Made by a program: the position numbers and the translations under genes. Positions 15,417 to 26,302 of a DNA stretch of 43,564 nucleotides are shown piece by piece (position 1 is the first letter of the stretch; every line of letters starts with the position of its first letter). Source of the stretch: a virus; the IMG/VR virus record IMGVR_UViG_3300042691_008888, positions 1-43,564 of that record; one strand, written 5' to 3'. Below the pieces are notes generated by a model, which searched no databases, was not told the origin of the DNA, and saw only the letters and a program-made list of their open reading frames with translations.

Positions 15417-15493
15417 GCGCGTGTAGCCCAATTGGCAGAGGCAAGAGCTTTAAATCCTCTAAAGTGTGGGTTCGAGTCCCACCACGCGCACCA
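15417..15493 (+). tRNA. tRNA with anticodon UAA (tRNA-Leu by anticodon, atypical short variable loop)
   Basis: A 77-base cloverleaf with encoded CCA. The acceptor GCGCGTG/CACGCGC pairs perfectly over 7 bp. The D stem is GCC/GGC, the anticodon stem AGAGC/CCTCT with a C-C mismatch at the loop end, the loop TTTAAAT puts anticodon TAA at 15451-15453, and the T arm is GTGGG-TTCGAGT-CCCAC. The variable loop is only 5 bases, whereas bacterial tRNA-Leu normally has a long variable arm. It would read UUA, a codon expected to be rare in a GC-rich host but frequent in this AT-richer phage. Amino-acid identity is therefore uncertain. Confidence 0.9.
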
Positions 15494-17003: not shown

Positions 17004-17368
17004 TGGAAACAGAATACTATTATCGATGGTCAGCAACAGTGCAATGGTTGGGTGGTGGTGGTCATAGTGTATATTTTCATTGCGAAGCTTATCCTGTAAT
17101 TAAGAAAACAAGAGCAGGAGTATTTGTAGAGGAAGCTAGCGGACGTAAGCACTTTATTTTGAATGACGCAAATAAGAAGTGGGCTGCCCCTACCAAACAA
17201 GAGGCATGGCTAAACTACAAAAATCGTTCACGTAATCATTTACGATTTGCACAAAACAATTTAGACAAGATTAAGTGTGCACAAGCAGCGCCACAATTTC
17301 AGAGTGACGAGTTTCCAACTGAGGTATTAAATGAAGTTCAATCTGAGAACACCTTTACCTTCGGATGA
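17003..17368 (+). CDS. Conserved phage small protein (KKW..PTKQEAW type)
   Basis: A 121-residue protein, METEYYYRWSATVQWLGGGG. The ATG at 17003 has GGGGAG 5 bases upstream. A beta-rich first half (AGVFVEEASGRKHFILNDAN) is followed by KKWAAPTKQEAWLNYKNRSR, a pattern 'kkfaypT.eeAw.sy..R..r' seen in many phage hypotheticals. It overlaps the nuclease gene by 38 bases. Function unknown. Confidence 0.75.
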   Translation: METEYYYRWSATVQWLGGGGHSVYFHCEAYPVIKKTRAGVFVEEASGRKHFILNDANKKWAAPTKQEAWLNYKNRSRNHLRFAQNNLDKIKCAQAAPQFQSDEFPTEVLNEVQSENTFTFG

Positions 17369-18413
17369 TTTAGATAAGTTACACGCCTTCGACTTCACTA
17401 AGATGAGTGCTGTTAACACGTGTCCAACATTTGGCATTATTCGTTATGGCTATCATAAAGTATTCTCGACAAGTTCCAGAGCAATGGCGTTGGAGGCAGG
17501 ATCAGCTTGTCATGAAGTATTTGCAGCAGCGCGATGCGTCGATCTTATCACTAATTTCAGAAAGGCTTATCCGGATCAAGACGAAGGACATGTTAGAAGC
17601 ATTGTACGAAAACGTGCAGTTAATATGTTCGGGGAAGAAAGAGCTAACGAGTTCTTTGCGGAGCTTGATAGTTCAGAGGATGAGAGAACAAAAGTACTTA
17701 GAAGCTGTCTCAGCATCCTCAATAATGGGCCTTTCTATGACGACCCATCAGACAAACGACGTACTATGTCTAATCTCGAAGAGGCTTGCATTGCGTACTT
17801 GGATCGCTTAGAGTTTGGTAGGAACGTTCCATTTCTGCAAGGTGATTATGTAGGTATTGAGACGCCTATTAATTTAATCATTGAGTATGAAACAGATGAC
17901 GGTGTTAGTAGAACTATTAGGTTTGTTGGCCGCATCGATGGTGTGCATTGTCATCGTAATGATCCTAGCGCCCCATTTGTAGAGGAAAATAAAACAGCGA
18001 GTAGGTTAGGTGATGCGTGGGAACAATCATTCGAGATGTCGCATCAGGTCACTGGTTACCTTGCCGCAGCATCCACGCTTATCGGTATCCCTTTGGGCAT
18101 GGGACGTGTTAGGGGTTTATGTATACCCCAACCGCGCGTGTATGACACTAACGGGGTTTCTACAGTCACAGTATTCCGCAAGCAACACCAATTTACCGAG
18201 TGGGCTAAGTGGGTAGTTCATACTGTAGAAATGTTCATGCTTCACTACGACGACCCCACTAATGCGCCTAAGTATACTCATAGCTGCAATCGTTATTTTC
18301 GTCCGTGTTCTTATATCCCCTTGTGTAGTGCTGCACCAGAGGAACGGACTGAGATGTTTGCAGATATGTTTGATGATGAATGGAGTCCTTTGCACGAGAA
18401 AGCAAATGATTAA
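17331..18413 (+). CDS. PD-(D/E)XK nuclease, Cas4/RecB-like with Fe-S cluster cysteines
   Basis: A 360-residue protein. The nuclease core shows H61 (GSACHEVF), D203 (FVGRIDG), E219-x-K221 (VEENKTAS) and Q239 (SHQVTGYL), the canonical order for RecB/Cas4 exonucleases. C31 near the N-terminus and C319, C326 and C332 near the C-terminus have the split 1+3 spacing of the 4Fe-4S clasp in Cas4 and AddB nucleases. It likely resects DNA ends for recombination with the Sak4-like protein that follows, or degrades host DNA. No Cas1/Cas2 is present, so a CRISPR role is not implied. Confidence 0.9.
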   Translation: MKFNLRTPLPSDDLDKLHAFDFTKMSAVNTCPTFGIIRYGYHKVFSTSSRAMALEAGSACHEVFAAARCVDLITNFRKAYPDQDEGHVRSIVRKRAVNMFGEERANEFFAELDSSEDERTKVLRSCLSILNNGPFYDDPSDKRRTMSNLEEACIAYLDRLEFGRNVPFLQGDYVGIETPINLIIEYETDDGVSRTIRFVGRIDGVHCHRNDPSAPFVEENKTASRLGDAWEQSFEMSHQVTGYLAAASTLIGIPLGMGRVRGLCIPQPRVYDTNGVSTVTVFRKQHQFTEWAKWVVHTVEMFMLHYDDPTNAPKYTHSCNRYFRPCSYIPLCSAAPEERTEMFADMFDDEWSPLHEKAND

Positions 18414-18669: not shown

Positions 18670-18930
18670 AATTACATCAAGTTAACCGAACAGTACACAA
18701 GAGATAAAACACGTACTGTTTATATTAATTTAGATCAAGTAGTTATGGTTGCTGAGAATGGTACTGGTTCTAGGCTGTTCTTTTCTCATGCTATGTATGA
18801 TGTACTAGAGTCGCCTGCTTCTATTATTGGTGGGCAAGTAATTGTTCTAACAGATAAGGAAGAAGTAGATGGCGGAAGTCGAAATGAAGATGGGCGGCCT
18901 TCTAATCCAGCCATCAAGTCAAACAGTTAA
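18661..18930 (+). CDS. Unknown small beta-rich protein
   Basis: An 89-residue protein with a GTG start and an ideal AAGGAG site. The first 65 residues (YIKLTEQYTRDKTRTVYINL, DQVVMVAENGTGSRLFFSHA) resemble short phage modules of the FlbD-like 'I.L....g..v.in.d.I..ve' type. The tail after residue 69 overlaps the Sak4-like gene by 62 bases and is polar. The -10 box of a promoter lies inside its first codons. Confidence 0.65.
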   Translation: MYNNYIKLTEQYTRDKTRTVYINLDQVVMVAENGTGSRLFFSHAMYDVLESPASIIGGQVIVLTDKEEVDGGSRNEDGRPSNPAIKSNS

Positions 18931-19699
18931 ACGAATGACAATGCTTCTATGGGGCGGTCCAGGTGGAGGAAAGACTACACTTGCTTGCACTGCCCCCGGT
19001 AAGAAGCTTCTTGTTAACTTCGATCCTGATGGCCCTGCCTCCGTTGCTGGTTGGGCTAATGTAGACGTAGTAGATTTCTCTGGTGTACCTGCATCAACAC
19101 TTGCACAAGCGAAGAATACTAATAACCCTATGGGACTCGCATCTGTCTTAGAGAATTATGATACAGTTATCTTTGACAGTCTTACTAACATTGGTTATAA
19201 GGCTTTGATGCATGGCGTCTCAGAAGGAGGTAGTAAAGTTTCGATTGAGCGACCGGGTCTCCAAGCTTATGGTATTCGAAACGCTCTTATTTTGCAGCTT
19301 ATCAAGAACGTCCTTGCGCTTACCAACAAACTTAATAAGCATTGTATCTTTATTGCACACGAAGCTGCTCCTAATACTAATGACGATGGTGTTATTCTGT
19401 ACATCACTCTTGCTTTGGGTGGTCAATTGCCAGATCAGGCTGCTCTTGATTTTTCCGAAGTGTGGAATGTTAGTGATATGGGGGCTGGTCGTAATCGTCG
19501 TATTATGATCCGTCCTGCTAGGAATAAGAAGCCTTGTAAGACACGTATGTTCCAGACTAGCGGCGATCCAGAGTTCGAATGGTCATTTGATCCTGATGAT
19601 TTAGATGATAAGGATAACATGACTATCGAAGGATGGTTCGAAGCTTGGAAGGCTAACAATATGAAGAAGCTCGAACTTCCCAAGGTTAAGAAGAAGTAA
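18869..19699 (+). CDS. RecA-fold ATPase, Sak4-like recombinase
   Basis: A 276-residue protein. Walker A GGPGGGKTT is at residues 29-37 and the Walker B-like YDTVIFDSLT near 95-104. The fold class is the phage AAA_24/RecA-core family that includes Sak4 single-strand annealing ATPases. These promote annealing of complementary ssDNA with a partner SSB, and an SSB-like gene follows two genes downstream here. Expected role: homologous recombination, replication restart and concatemer formation. AAGGAAG lies 6-8 bases upstream of the ATG. Confidence 0.88.
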   Translation: MAEVEMKMGGLLIQPSSQTVKRMTMLLWGGPGGGKTTLACTAPGKKLLVNFDPDGPASVAGWANVDVVDFSGVPASTLAQAKNTNNPMGLASVLENYDTVIFDSLTNIGYKALMHGVSEGGSKVSIERPGLQAYGIRNALILQLIKNVLALTNKLNKHCIFIAHEAAPNTNDDGVILYITLALGGQLPDQAALDFSEVWNVSDMGAGRNRRIMIRPARNKKPCKTRMFQTSGDPEFEWSFDPDDLDDKDNMTIEGWFEAWKANNMKKLELPKVKKK

Positions 19700-19804: not shown

Positions 19805-20041
19805 ATGACAGATCACAAGGGTCTTCCTGTCTCTGGTTATCAGCCACAGACGGATGACAAGGTTGCTTATGTTAATGAGAATAAGCGCCTTGAAGAAATC
19901 ATCTTGCGTAGGCTTGATGATATGATGCAGGACAACAAATACGATCATCGTTGGACTGCTATTGCTAGGACACAAATGGAACAGGCTTTTATGGCTATGA
20001 ACCGTGCTGTGTTTCGACCTTCCCGTATCGATAATGTTTGA
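19805..20041 (+). CDS. Acb2/Tad1-family protein, probable cyclic-nucleotide sponge
   Basis: A 78-residue protein, MTDHKGLPVSGYQPQTDDKV. The sequence follows the 'GY.p.s...v..vN..K.lEe.ilr.ld' then 'D.RW.aIArT..eq.FMAmNRAVf.P' scheme of the Acb2/Tad1 hairpin domain: HRWTAIARTQMEQAFMAMNR is at residues 48-67. Characterised members are small helical oligomers that bind the signalling nucleotides of CBASS (Acb2) or Thoeris (Tad1) and so block these defences. The AGAGG site is 6 bases upstream. It sits between the Sak4-like and SSB-like genes. Which ligand it binds cannot be told from sequence; many family members are uncharacterised. Confidence 0.85.
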   Translation: MTDHKGLPVSGYQPQTDDKVAYVNENKRLEEIILRRLDDMMQDNKYDHRWTAIARTQMEQAFMAMNRAVFRPSRIDNV

Positions 20042-20052
20042 GAGGAATTAAA

Positions 20053-20499
20053 ATGGCTAAGAAGGATCAGGTTTCGCTTGTTGATGACGACGAGAACGAC
20101 AGCATCATCGAGTTCTCTGAAAACATTGCAGAAGCCGAAGCTCCGGAACCGCTGCCTGAGCGTGAGTATGTTGCTTCGATCGAGAGCGTTACTCGTGCAT
20201 CTAGTCAGAAGGGTTCTGTTTACGCCGCTCCGATCTTCTTTGTTAAGGAAGAGGATTATCCGGCCGACTACGATACCAACAATGCGCCCGGTGGTAAGAA
20301 AATCCGTCATATGGTTATGCTTACCGATGATGGTCCGTCGCGTCACCGTCTGCGTAAGTTCTGTGAGGCCATCGGTGCTCCTATGAGCAAGCGTATTGAC
20401 TTGTCGCAGTGGGTCGGTCTGGAAGCTAAGATCACCATCAAGCATGACACCTACGAAGGCGTTACTCGCGAGCGCATTTCTAAGGTCGATATGGTTTAA
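20053..20499 (+). CDS. Single-stranded DNA-binding-like protein
   Basis: A 148-residue protein, MAKKDQVSLVDDDENDSIIE, with GAGGAA upstream. An acidic N-terminal tail precedes a beta-rich core (EYVASIESVTRASSQKGSVY, KKIRHMVMLTDDGPSRHRLR, WVGLEAKITIKHDTYEGVTR) of the kind found in phage OB-fold proteins of the DUF669/DUF2815 class that accompany Sak-type recombinases. The C-ending codon use indicates high expression, as expected for an SSB. A terminator follows. The assignment rests on pattern and context. Confidence 0.65.
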   Translation: MAKKDQVSLVDDDENDSIIEFSENIAEAEAPEPLPEREYVASIESVTRASSQKGSVYAAPIFFVKEEDYPADYDTNNAPGGKKIRHMVMLTDDGPSRHRLRKFCEAIGAPMSKRIDLSQWVGLEAKITIKHDTYEGVTRERISKVDMV

Positions 20500-21313: not shown

Positions 21314-22693
21314 ATGGAAATCAACCTTCATCCAGTACAGGTTGAAGCAGTAAATCTGTGTCTGGATAAGAGTAAGCGAATTGTAGCTGTTACTGGTCCT
21401 GCTGGTTCTGGTAAGACTACGATTATTAAGCATGTTGTTAATGCACTAGCCGAGCAAGGTCTAATTATCGGCGTATGTGCTCCAACTGGTAAGGCTGCTA
21501 GGCGTATTACACAGGCTACAGGCATCGAAGCAGTTACTATGCATCGATTGCTTGAATATCCTATGCCGGGTGAACGCGATCCAGAAACTGGCAAGCCTAT
21601 GAACCCCGGTCAGCCCAAGCGAGATACATATCATCCACTATTTCATGATGTTATTATCGCTGACGAGTATGCGATGGTGAATTATGAGTTGGATCGTAAT
21701 CTCATTGATGCTCTTAAGCGTGGTGCTCGTCTTCTTGTATTTGGGGACGTATATCAGCTACCCCCTATCGAAAAACAGCAAGCACAAATGGAGGCACCTG
21801 CTCCTTTTGAACGTCATCTTGCTCGTGATGGGGCTGTTGTTAAGCTTGAACATGTATTTCGGCAGGGTGAGGGTAGCGGTATTCTAATCGGCGCTAACAA
21901 CGTACGTCATGGGCGTGTTCCTGCTAAAGCTGATGACTTCCAGTATGTATTTACTGACAATCAGCCATCATATCTCATCAAGTACCTAGAGAATGCACTC
22001 GATGCTGATGTGATGTTCAACACGCTGGACAACCAAATCATCACGCCAGAGAAGAAATCGTGGATTGGCACCGGCCCACTGAACCTTAAACTACAGGCGT
22101 TTTACAACCGTGCTGAGTTGATGATCGATAACCTGATGTTGCCTCGTCACTCATGGGATAAGGGTGGCGAACTGACGATTGCCAAGGGTGATAAGCTCGT
22201 CTGTACTGAAAACACCTATGATATGCGAGATTACCATGAAAGGTTCGCTGATTTTGGTGATCGTGACTTAGGTATTCAAAGTACGTTCATCCCTGTTCCT
22301 CCCCACAAGTTCATGCTCAATGGCGAAATCGGTATCGTAGAGGATATCTTTGCAGATGGTTCCATTTACCTCAATGTTGGAGATCGTACAGTACATATCC
22401 CAGCATCCTTCAGTGAATACAACCACTATAAGGATAACTTTTACCCAAAAGACCCTAGACGTTCTCTCGACCTTGCCTATGCCCTCACGACCCATAAGTG
22501 CCAAGGTTCTGAATTTGAGAGGGTGATTTATATGATGTCACATACTAAGCCATTCATGCTCAATCGACGTAATTTCTATACTGCTGTTACGCGAGCTAAG
22601 AGTCATGTGATGATTGTTGGTGATCAGAAAGCATTGACCTATTCTCTGCGTCCGTATGTTCCACCGAAGCCTTATGTTGCAAAGGGACGATGA
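21314..22693 (+). CDS. RecD-like superfamily 1 helicase
   Basis: A 459-residue protein that unwinds DNA 5'-3' if it behaves like RecD/Dda relatives. Q-like motif HPVQVEAV, Walker A GPAGSGKTT (28-36), motif Ia CAPTGKAARR, Walker B IIADEYAM with D117/E118, motif III VFGDVYQLPP and the C-terminal UvrD_C_2 motifs (YALTTHKCQGSEFERV, NFYTAVTRAKSHVMIVG) are all present. The insert between about 300 and 370 (DYHERFADFGDRDLG...) looks lineage-specific. As the only helicase in the window it is the probable replication or recombination helicase. ATGATGA coupling to the next gene. Confidence 0.93.
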   Translation: MEINLHPVQVEAVNLCLDKSKRIVAVTGPAGSGKTTIIKHVVNALAEQGLIIGVCAPTGKAARRITQATGIEAVTMHRLLEYPMPGERDPETGKPMNPGQPKRDTYHPLFHDVIIADEYAMVNYELDRNLIDALKRGARLLVFGDVYQLPPIEKQQAQMEAPAPFERHLARDGAVVKLEHVFRQGEGSGILIGANNVRHGRVPAKADDFQYVFTDNQPSYLIKYLENALDADVMFNTLDNQIITPEKKSWIGTGPLNLKLQAFYNRAELMIDNLMLPRHSWDKGGELTIAKGDKLVCTENTYDMRDYHERFADFGDRDLGIQSTFIPVPPHKFMLNGEIGIVEDIFADGSIYLNVGDRTVHIPASFSEYNHYKDNFYPKDPRRSLDLAYALTTHKCQGSEFERVIYMMSHTKPFMLNRRNFYTAVTRAKSHVMIVGDQKALTYSLRPYVPPKPYVAKGR

Positions 22694-23292: not shown

Positions 23293-23500
23293 TGAATTGC
23301 ATGAGAGTGTAAAGAAGCTGGTCGGAGAGAGTTTTATTCTTATCCTACCTAATGACCAGAAGATTGTTACAGATGTGCAACCTATGGATATGGCTGCTAC
23401 ATTGGCGGCTATTGTATCATCACTGCTTAATGGTGGAGCACGTGTAGAAATCCACGACGATGGCGATGATGAGCAGGATAACACTAAGGGCATGAATTAA
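23282..23500 (+). CDS. Small acidic protein
   Basis: A 72-residue protein, MDNDELHESVKKLVGESFIL, ending in an acidic tail EIHDDGDDEQDNTKGMN. The start at 23282 lies 11 bases inside the kinase gene. A strand-helix pattern in the middle (ILILPNDQKIVTDVQ, MAATLAAIVSSLL). It is translationally coupled to the polymerase gene by TAATG. No family recognised; a polymerase accessory is conceivable by position only. Confidence 0.7.
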   Translation: MDNDELHESVKKLVGESFILILPNDQKIVTDVQPMDMAATLAAIVSSLLNGGARVEIHDDGDDEQDNTKGMN

Positions 23501-25953
23501 TGATCACCACTACTGCACAGCTAAAAGCAGAGTTCGCCAAGCGTGCAGATACTTGCGGTCTGTCTATCGAGTGTCCTGCTGATGGTACATTCAATAGCCA
23601 GATTGCAGTAATTGCGGAGGCGCCGGGTGATAGCGAAGTACATAAGAAGATGCCGCTTGTCGGTACTAGTGGTCACAAGTTATGGACTACTATGCGGCAG
23701 TTCGGTATTAATCGTATGGATTGTTATATCACCAATGTTGCCAAGCGTCAGGTAAGCTTTGGTGACGATCAACGTAGACCGATGAGTAAGCCGGAGCAGG
23801 AACAATGGAACGATTTGCTGTTATGGGAATTGTCCCAACTACCGAACCTAAAGTATGTTGTAGCTCTAGGAAACTTCGCGTTATCGGCGTTGGCGGGACA
23901 CCAGGGGATTACGAAATGGCGTGGCTCTGTTCTTCCTGTGGTACTATCCAATGGACGAACGGTACAGGTAATATGCACTTACAATCCTGCGATGATCCTA
24001 CGGGAACCAAAGACAGAGATCACATTCCAACTTGATATTAGTAAGTTAAAGCGCGTCATTGCTGGTAAATTCAAAGTACCTGTAATCACTACGCATATTA
24101 ATCCTTCGTTTGCTGACGCTCGCGAGTGGATCAACAAAATGCGTCAAGACGGCCAACCTGTGGCATGGGACATTGAGACCAAATCAAATGAAACAGCTTG
24201 TATCGGTTATGCGAATACTGTTGACGAGGCTATGTGCATCAATTGGCGTAGCATCGATCAAAATCGCTATACGGTTGAACAAGAACGCATCCTCCGCAGA
24301 GACATTCAATCATTACACACAGACCGGGAAGTCCGATTTGTTACACAGAATGGAATGTTCGATACTACTTGGCTCGGATACAAGGATAGTATTCAGACTA
24401 CTGCGATCTGGTTCGATACGATGCTTGCTCACCACACCCTCTACCCGTCACTTCCCCATAATCTCGGCTTCATCACAACACAGTACACCGATCACCCATA
24501 TTATAAGGATGAAAAAGACGACTGGAAAGATGTAGGGGATATTGATGAGTTCTGGCGCTATAACGGCAAGGATTGTTGCAACACGTTAGCAGCTAGCCAG
24601 AAGATGCATAAGGAGTTAATCAAGCAGGGTCTAGACGAGTTCTTCTTTAATCACGTCATGCGTCTGCAACCACATCTAGCCAGAATGACTATCGGTGGTG
24701 TGCTTATTGATACGAAGTTAAAGGAGAATATTAGAAGTGGACTCGTGGAAGATTGTGCAGAGAGGCTCGCCAAATTTCATCAAGCTGTACGACTTGCTAC
24801 AGGTCTTGAAGACTACGCACCAAATCCGAAGTCCCCTGTACAACTTGGCGACTTATTCTTCCGAAGACTTAAACTTGTCGGGAGAGGCACTTCGACTGAT
24901 GCGGCAAATAGAAAACGAATGTATGAACATCCTAGAACTAATGATCTTGCTAAGGATGTTATCACGAGTCTCGATGGGTACCTCAGAGAACACAAATTCT
25001 TAACTACTTACGCAGAAATGGAGATTGATCCAGACGGACGAGCCAGAAGCGAATATAAACAAACAGGTGTTCAATCCGCTCCTGGCCGTCTATCAAGCAG
25101 CAAGGTCATGTGGGGTTCTGGTATGAACTTTCAGAACCAGCCCTCGCGAGCGTACCCAATGTTCATCGCTGATCCCGGCTTTGGTATTGGATACTTCGAC
25201 GCTTCCCAAGCTGAGGCTCGACTTGTCGCTTACTTCGCTGACATCCCTCTTTGGAAGGAACAGTTCGAGCGTGCTAGACTTGATGGTGTCTACGACGCGC
25301 ATAGGGCTCTGGCCGGGGAAATGTTCAGTATCCCTTACGACGAGGTTCCCACCGCAGATGAAGTAACACATGATGACGGCTCCATTCACAAAACTATTAG
25401 GTTCATTGCGAAGCGCTGTCGTCATGGCCTTAACTATCGTATGGGACCGGATCGACTAGCGCAGACTACAGGGCTTAGTTTGGGCGAGGCATATAAGGCT
25501 TATAACGCATACCATCGGGCAACCCCTGAGATTAAGGTATGGTGGGGTAAGATCGAGAGGGAGGTACGGGATACCAAGAACCTATTCAATGCCTACGGCC
25601 GCAGGTGGACTTTGCTAGAGCGTCTGTCTCCTGAAGCTTTAGAGAGTATAGTCGCATACAAGCCCCAGTCAACCCTAGGGGATCATATTTGTAGGGTTAT
25701 CTATAAGTGCCATGAGGATGATCGGTGGCCGCTACATGCCCGTATATGGCTAAACGTCCATGACGCCCTTTTGTGTCTTGCTCCGCTGGATAAATTGAAG
25801 ACCTGTATCGCCATCATGAAGGAGCATGCCGAGACGCCTATCGTGATCAAAGGAGAGTCTCTTATTATCCCTGCTGATACGAAAATAAGCTATCCAGATG
25901 ACGATGGTATTCATAGATGGTCAACTCTTAAGAAATGGAAGGTTGGAGAGTGA
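23500..25953 (+). CDS. UDG-like / 3'-5' exonuclease / family A DNA polymerase fusion
   Basis: An 817-residue replicative polymerase. Residues about 1-185 form a uracil-DNA glycosylase-like domain (family 4 style): IAEAPGDSE (37-45), PLVGTSGHKLW, YITNVAKRQ, ALGNFALSALAG, and the motif-2 position reads YNPA (161-164) where His is usual. The proofreading exonuclease is intact: D224 and E226, N284-x3-D288 and Y354-x3-D358. The polymerase domain has motif A FDASQAEARL (D567), motif B K638-RCRHGLNY646 with His at the Klenow F762 position, and motif C NVHDALL (H754-D755). There is no 5'-3' nuclease. Confidence 0.95.
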   Translation: MITTTAQLKAEFAKRADTCGLSIECPADGTFNSQIAVIAEAPGDSEVHKKMPLVGTSGHKLWTTMRQFGINRMDCYITNVAKRQVSFGDDQRRPMSKPEQEQWNDLLLWELSQLPNLKYVVALGNFALSALAGHQGITKWRGSVLPVVLSNGRTVQVICTYNPAMILREPKTEITFQLDISKLKRVIAGKFKVPVITTHINPSFADAREWINKMRQDGQPVAWDIETKSNETACIGYANTVDEAMCINWRSIDQNRYTVEQERILRRDIQSLHTDREVRFVTQNGMFDTTWLGYKDSIQTTAIWFDTMLAHHTLYPSLPHNLGFITTQYTDHPYYKDEKDDWKDVGDIDEFWRYNGKDCCNTLAASQKMHKELIKQGLDEFFFNHVMRLQPHLARMTIGGVLIDTKLKENIRSGLVEDCAERLAKFHQAVRLATGLEDYAPNPKSPVQLGDLFFRRLKLVGRGTSTDAANRKRMYEHPRTNDLAKDVITSLDGYLREHKFLTTYAEMEIDPDGRARSEYKQTGVQSAPGRLSSSKVMWGSGMNFQNQPSRAYPMFIADPGFGIGYFDASQAEARLVAYFADIPLWKEQFERARLDGVYDAHRALAGEMFSIPYDEVPTADEVTHDDGSIHKTIRFIAKRCRHGLNYRMGPDRLAQTTGLSLGEAYKAYNAYHRATPEIKVWWGKIEREVRDTKNLFNAYGRRWTLLERLSPEALESIVAYKPQSTLGDHICRVIYKCHEDDRWPLHARIWLNVHDALLCLAPLDKLKTCIAIMKEHAETPIVIKGESLIIPADTKISYPDDDGIHRWSTLKKWKVGE

Positions 25954-25954
25954 T

Positions 25955-26302
25955 ATGGACATGGATAACTACCAGAAACAAACAACCTCTACTGCTGTTT
26001 ATAATACCACTTCTGCAATCGGCGCAAATACAGCACAGCTTGCTTATGTTGTTCTTGGTCTTGCAGGCGAGGCTGGTGAGGTAGCTAATAAGCTTAAGAA
26101 AGTTATTCGTGATGGAGGCGGTGTTATTACTAAGGAACAGCGTTTCGCTTTGATTGATGAACTTGGTGATGTATTTTGGTATCTGGCTCAATGTTGCGAA
26201 AAGTTAGATATTGATCTATCGTTAGTTGCTATGAACAATCTTAATAAACTTGCAGAACGAAAGAAGAATAAAACATTACAAGGAAGTGGTGATGACAGAT
26301 GA
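25955..26302 (+). CDS. MazG-like nucleotide pyrophosphohydrolase
   Basis: A 115-residue protein starting at 25955, one base after the polymerase stop, with GGAG just upstream. The all-helical MazG pattern is clear: LGLAGEAGEVANKLKK (E-x2-E) and ALIDELGDVFWYLAQC (E-x2-D). Such proteins hydrolyse NTPs or dNTPs to monophosphates; in phages they may lower (p)ppGpp-like alarm signals or clean the nucleotide pool. A partner to the dNMP kinase-like gene nearby. Confidence 0.9.
   Translation: MDMDNYQKQTTSTAVYNTTSAIGANTAQLAYVVLGLAGEAGEVANKLKKVIRDGGGVITKEQRFALIDELGDVFWYLAQCCEKLDIDLSLVAMNNLNKLAERKKNKTLQGSGDDR

Follow-up and report, generated by a model that had tools for sequence, protein, structure and literature searches.

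The closest described relatives of the gene reported here are two Acb2 proteins, Vs.4 of phage T4 (PDB 7UQ2) and Acb2 of Pseudomonas phage p26 (PDB 8H2J, 8IXZ), together with Tad1 (CBTad1, PDB 7UAV), which shares the same Pfam hairpin name. Acb2 consists of a short N-terminal segment followed by two long antiparallel helices, whereas Tad1 carries an N-terminal antiparallel β-sheet domain. Acb2 forms a homo-hexamer built of head-to-head dimers; it takes up, and leaves uncleaved, cyclic oligonucleotides that infected bacteria produce as alarm signals, and thereby shields the phage from CBASS. In the case of Vs.4, the ligand is cGAMP, whose bases are stacked by Y8 and F82, while Y8, H11, K23 and R79 provide polar contacts; the Y8A and F82A substitutions weaken binding more than 5-fold and more than 25-fold, respectively (PMC10097602). 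A helix is capped by T12, and the hexamer is built by L29, F33, A66, A73 and A77, with A77I disrupting the protein (PMC10097602). The T68M substitution is also reported to lower binding (PMC12657230).

The window analyzed here is a single virus record of 43.6 kb, in which an acb2-like open reading frame (19805-20041, +) runs from an ATG start to a TGA stop and encodes a 78-residue protein carrying the motif HRWTAIARTQMEQAFMAMNRAVFRP. The initial annotation had read this frame and its Acb2/Tad1 signature exactly as found, and the profile comparison that it proposed gave a match far above the curated cut-off: PF24729 (Acb2_Tad1_hairpin) aligns with residues 11-71 over its whole length (model positions 1-58 of 58) at 61.1 bits against 27 bits (E 1.2e-16), a similarity above chance. 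The protein also matches phrog_717 (5.6e-13), the source used by Jenson et al. to gather Vs.4 homologues (PMC10097602), and an NCBIfam search returned nothing relevant. The start codon is sound, because independent relatives, drawn from unrelated phages, share this methionine as their first residue (MTDHKGLPV in loci L002 and L004) and the ATG is closely preceded by the purine-rich sequence AGAGG. We are highly confident that the frame is a real gene and its product a bona fide member of the Acb2 hairpin family. Its GC content (0.43) fits that of its own genome (0.44) and differs from the median of the sponge family (0.62), so the gene is no fresh arrival. A promoter-like site was not found in the 105-nt gap preceding it, and the RNA structure upstream is unremarkable (z -1.9).

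Both sequence and predicted structure were compared with the known proteins. A single-sequence search of PDB sequences matched Vs.4 at 7e-4, and a family profile of 59 sequences (alignment A2) matched p26 Acb2 best, at 6.8e-11, followed by Vs.4 at 1.8e-10, while Tad1 reached only 0.07, a weak match aligned solely at profile positions 35-69. Given values near 1e-10 for Acb2 and Vs.4 against 0.07 for Tad1, the protein groups with Acb2. The AlphaFold2 monomer model (mean pLDDT 91.2) shows the Acb2 architecture, with helices at residues 17-42 and 48-70 forming a two-helix hairpin, and the β-sheet domain of Tad1 is absent, as the model of all 78 residues has no strand of at least three residues. 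Foldseek ranks 1-9 are all Acb2 or Vs.4 chains at a probability of 1.00, the next match falling to 0.09, with E-values (5e-3 and up) as modest as a fold of just two helices would lead one to expect. By VIA-align, Vs.4 and Acb2 reach Z values of 8.9 (Vs.4, over 71 residues), 8.6 and 8.3 and the first unrelated chain reaches 6.8, although such values, taken alone, are indecisive for helical proteins. Sequence and structure agree independently on an Acb2-type identity. The paired-helix hairpin expected from the initial annotation is thus predicted, with Acb2 and Vs.4 as the only confident structural matches; its Acb2/Tad1 assignment stands for the hairpin family, but the relationship is to be read as Acb2-like and not Tad1-like.

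Alignments with Vs.4, to which the protein is about 28% identical, are gap-free around the ligand and interface sites. The cGAMP contacts Y8, K23, R79 and F82 correspond to the identical residues Y12, K27, R67 and F70, H11 corresponds to Q15, and T12 and T68 correspond to T16 and T56. Aligned with Vs.4 and with roles taken from that protein (PMC10097602), the N-terminal ligand loop SGYQPQT (residues 10-16; 19832-19852, +) comprises Y12, Q15 and the helix cap T16, and helix 1 of the model (residues 17-42; 19853-19930, +) holds K27. Following a short hairpin turn placed by the model and the alignments (residues 43-47; 19931-19945, +), helix 2 (residues 48-70; 19946-20014, +) contains the RW-AIART motif, the alanines A54 and A61, equivalent to the hexamer-packing A66 and A73 of Vs.4, and the ligand residues R67 and F70. 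The interface side is composed of I33, L37, A54, A61 and M65. Two substitutions relative to Vs.4 count against a sponge, namely F62 in place of S74 and M65 in place of A77; nonetheless, p26 Acb2 has an isoleucine at the M65 position, so a large residue there is tolerated in a proven sponge, and the two proteins share a small-then-large interface pattern (A-I in p26, A-M here). Moreover, Y11 and K26 of p26 Acb2 correspond to Y12 and K27, and both proteins carry an RW-AI-[KR]T motif, whose RW is missing from Vs.4; they differ at F70 (A88 in p26) and N66 (I84 in p26).

Among 124 distinct relatives, Y12 is conserved in 96%, Q15 and K27 in 97% each and F70 in 100%, glycine or alanine occupies position 54 in 99% and position 61 in 97%, and R49 and W50 are retained in 95% and 90%. 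F62, M63, N66 and R67 are likewise conserved in 100%, partly by construction, since every recruited locus carries the C-terminal search motif; R67 lies inside this motif and its value is biased, whereas F70 lies outside the motif of the viral scan. Within the 84 relatives lacking the N-terminal search motif, Y12 is present in 78 and Q15 and K27 in 79 each. The median pairwise dN/dS of the family is about 0.3, a rough value with many pairs near saturation. A covariation between W64 and A65 was set aside as weak (p 0.008, unadjusted).

The acb2-like product is probably a compact Acb2-type sponge that captures the cyclic oligonucleotides of CBASS, primarily dinucleotides. Its two-helix protomers would assemble, presumably into a hexamer, and where they pair, the GYxPQ loop at the N-terminus and the NRxxF segment at the C-terminus would together form pockets capable of binding the cyclic dinucleotides produced by CBASS during infection. 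The signal would be held rather than cut, which would keep the host suicide effector off. The short hairpin, the Tad1-like E59 and N66 and the p26-like R49-W50 make the exact choice of ligand less certain. The last of these, whose role is putative, bears on a rather unlikely alternative in which the protein mainly sequesters cyclic trinucleotides, bound at the trimer axis, with a secondary role for the dinucleotide pocket: R49-W50 is common to p26 Acb2 (RWLAIGKT) and absent from Vs.4, and cA3 and cAAG are reported to be bound more tightly than dinucleotides by Acb2 (review PMC12043709), but the contact residues for dinucleotides are all the same retained.

In the alignments, the hairpin falls short of those of Vs.4 and p26 Acb2 by about 18-19 residues (19 for p26), and exactly the same short loop recurs in 93 of the 124 relatives. 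The initial annotation had instead singled out a short, divergent N-terminus, which does not hold, as 11 residues precede the ligand tyrosine Y12 against 7 in Vs.4 and this segment is highly conserved across the family. Judged from the alignments, the true peculiarity of the compact sponge is the shortened hairpin and not the N-terminus. This shortening could change the oligomer, yet the ligand residues are kept despite it, and the gene almost certainly encodes an Acb2 relative, a shortened addition to an established group and not a novel type of system. The compact form also offers a handy minimal scaffold with which to ask which residues set ligand choice in Acb2 versus Tad1. It is rather unlikely that the subfamily, combining an Acb2-like ligand loop with a Tad1-like last helix, binds one or more signals beyond those of tested Acb2 proteins, for example cyclic dinucleotides together with gcADPR, or an as yet undescribed alphaproteobacterial signal.

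It is very unlikely that, like Tad1, the protein acts as a sponge for glycocyclic ADP-ribose of the Thoeris type, alone or in addition to CBASS signals. The C-terminal helix (T-x-[IM]-E-Q-[AG]-F-M-A-x-N-R) is close to that of Tad1 (THVEEALMWMNRR), with the N-R pair and the glutamate aligned in both; E59 and N66 are common to Tad1 and not found in Acb2 or Vs.4, and to this extent they also count against the Acb2-type reading. However, the model lacks the β domain, the profile match to Tad1 is marginal, and ThsB TIR, the one TIR family searched, was found in none of the 27 genomes that harbor a related prophage. In favor of a CBASS signal, a SMODS CD-NTase is found in 7 of these 27 genomes compared with 30 among 395 genomes related at the order or family level, centre genomes excluded (Fisher p 0.005), an enrichment that is only suggestive since mobile-element load, relatedness and genome or assembly quality could explain it. 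A whole-class baseline was dropped as unfair, its sample being rich in small genomes.

The flanking genes are those initially annotated, a Sak4-like ATPase on one side and an SSB-like gene on the other, within a recombination module. The upstream neighbor is a Sak4-like ssDNA annealing ATPase (18869-19699, +; phrog_124 6.5e-22, PF13479 7.5e-14) that is kept in backbone relatives. The downstream gene (20053-20499, +) starts with an ATG 11 nt past the acb2-like stop codon, which its Shine-Dalgarno sequence overlaps; it matches phrog_378 at only 3.6e-4, and its SSB-like assignment is strengthened by position and by conservation in backbone relatives. The module also includes a putative exonuclease or endonuclease (17331-18413, +), proposed from position and synteny in the absence of a Pfam match, and continues downstream with a Dda/RecD-like helicase (21314-22693, +; PF13604 5.7e-30, phrog_325), a dNMP kinase and a fusion in which a UDG domain precedes a 3'-5' exonuclease and a family A DNA polymerase (23500-25953, +). 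Early co-expression of the acb2-like gene with the recombination proteins is plausible. Polymerases of the UDG-fusion cluster also occur in several unrelated sponge-bearing loci (L006, L010, L019, L024, L029, L081 and L086). The replication module ends with a MazG-like nucleotide pyrophosphatase (25940-26302, +), and a MazG-like protein, Atd1, has been reported as a counter-defense protein (PMC10419184). The early region contains one tRNA-Leu with a TAA anticodon (15417-15493, +), the sole match of an Rfam search.

Relatives of the compact sponge were found in 204 viral contigs and in 53 genome loci, the latter nearly all from Alphaproteobacteria, giving a family of more than 200 loci mostly in phages and prophages of this class. 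Among annotated phages, those of Brevundimonas, Caulobacter, Rhodobacter and Rhizobium are the most similar; homologues in Brevundimonas phages Polewnik and Strzyga, Caulobacter phage Jess A, Rhodobacter phages RcWaterboi and RcapMu and Rhizobium phages are about 49-62% identical, share the compact hairpin and the invariant residues, and differ in their various genomic settings and in their annotation as hypothetical, the label borne by the best listed matches. A testable anti-defense function can be assigned to more than 200 loci, labeled hypothetical in the annotated phages examined. The closest relative (68% identity; L093 6001-6216) lies on a contig binned as Flavobacteriaceae (Bacteroidota), which may reflect a binning error or a host jump. 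In Rhizobium phage RHph_X2_26, the gene directly upstream of the sponge (L008 4444-4980, +) was deposited as "TIR domain-containing", a label that was not upheld, its matches being instead to DUF1937 and to a PHROG for nucleoside 2-deoxyribosyltransferase; it may encode a nucleotide-acting enzyme adjoining a nucleotide sponge.

Of 78 classifiable loci, defined by any classified gene within 4.5 kb of the sponge and with genes in GC-rich loci chosen by homology, 25 lie in recombination or replication modules, and the other 53 belong to clusters of virion structural genes, most of them of the Mu-like type. Built from 78 alignment columns, too few to fix the number, the best family tree needs 10 changes between these settings and its well-supported branches force only 1. 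It is highly improbable that a same-fold hairpin protein, devoid of any nucleotide-signal function, was recruited to replication or recombination, for instance as a Sak4 or SSB partner: the PF24729 fold is small and simple, and the 25 loci lie near Sak4, Enc34-type SSB, DUF2800 and DNA polymerase genes in modules whose proteins are only about 25-33% alike, but most loci are in structural clusters, the module is kept in backbone relatives without the sponge gene, and conservation is focused on the published ligand residues.

The distribution of this Acb2-type sponge gene is patchy and cargo-like. The backbone is without a close isolate: megablast of the module against phages gave no match, and identity to isolates is about 22% for TerL and less than 30% for the capsid protein. 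A pattern search for Sak4 relatives in viral contigs found none. Backbone relatives were instead recovered through the major capsid protein, and these keep the order exonuclease, Sak4, SSB, helicase and polymerase. Five of them (L234, L235, L236, L240 and L241) have no gene between Sak4 and SSB, whereas three others have unrelated small ORFs (L238, L239) or an HNH-like ORF (L237 3316-3894, +) there. The HNH-like ORF, found where the window has its sponge gene, suggests that this lineage uses the gap as a slot for cargo, and the Sak4-SSB interval stands out as a location in which phages keep such genes. Sponges 49-68% identical also occur near Sak4, SSB or polymerase genes in phages with a Sak4 and a polymerase that resemble those of the window at only about 25-33%, and in locus L018 the sponge gene begins at the Sak4 stop codon. 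As the slot is variable in backbone relatives and copies sit in similar modules of unrelated phages, the acb2-like gene behaves like a mobile cargo gene whose positions recur. Only one backbone relative (G028) has a PF24729 gene, which encodes a different protein of 73 residues (43 bits) and is located elsewhere, downstream of the polymerase and MazG genes (L235 2719-2940, -); this protein lacks the GY ligand tyrosine and may be a hairpin protein with another ligand.
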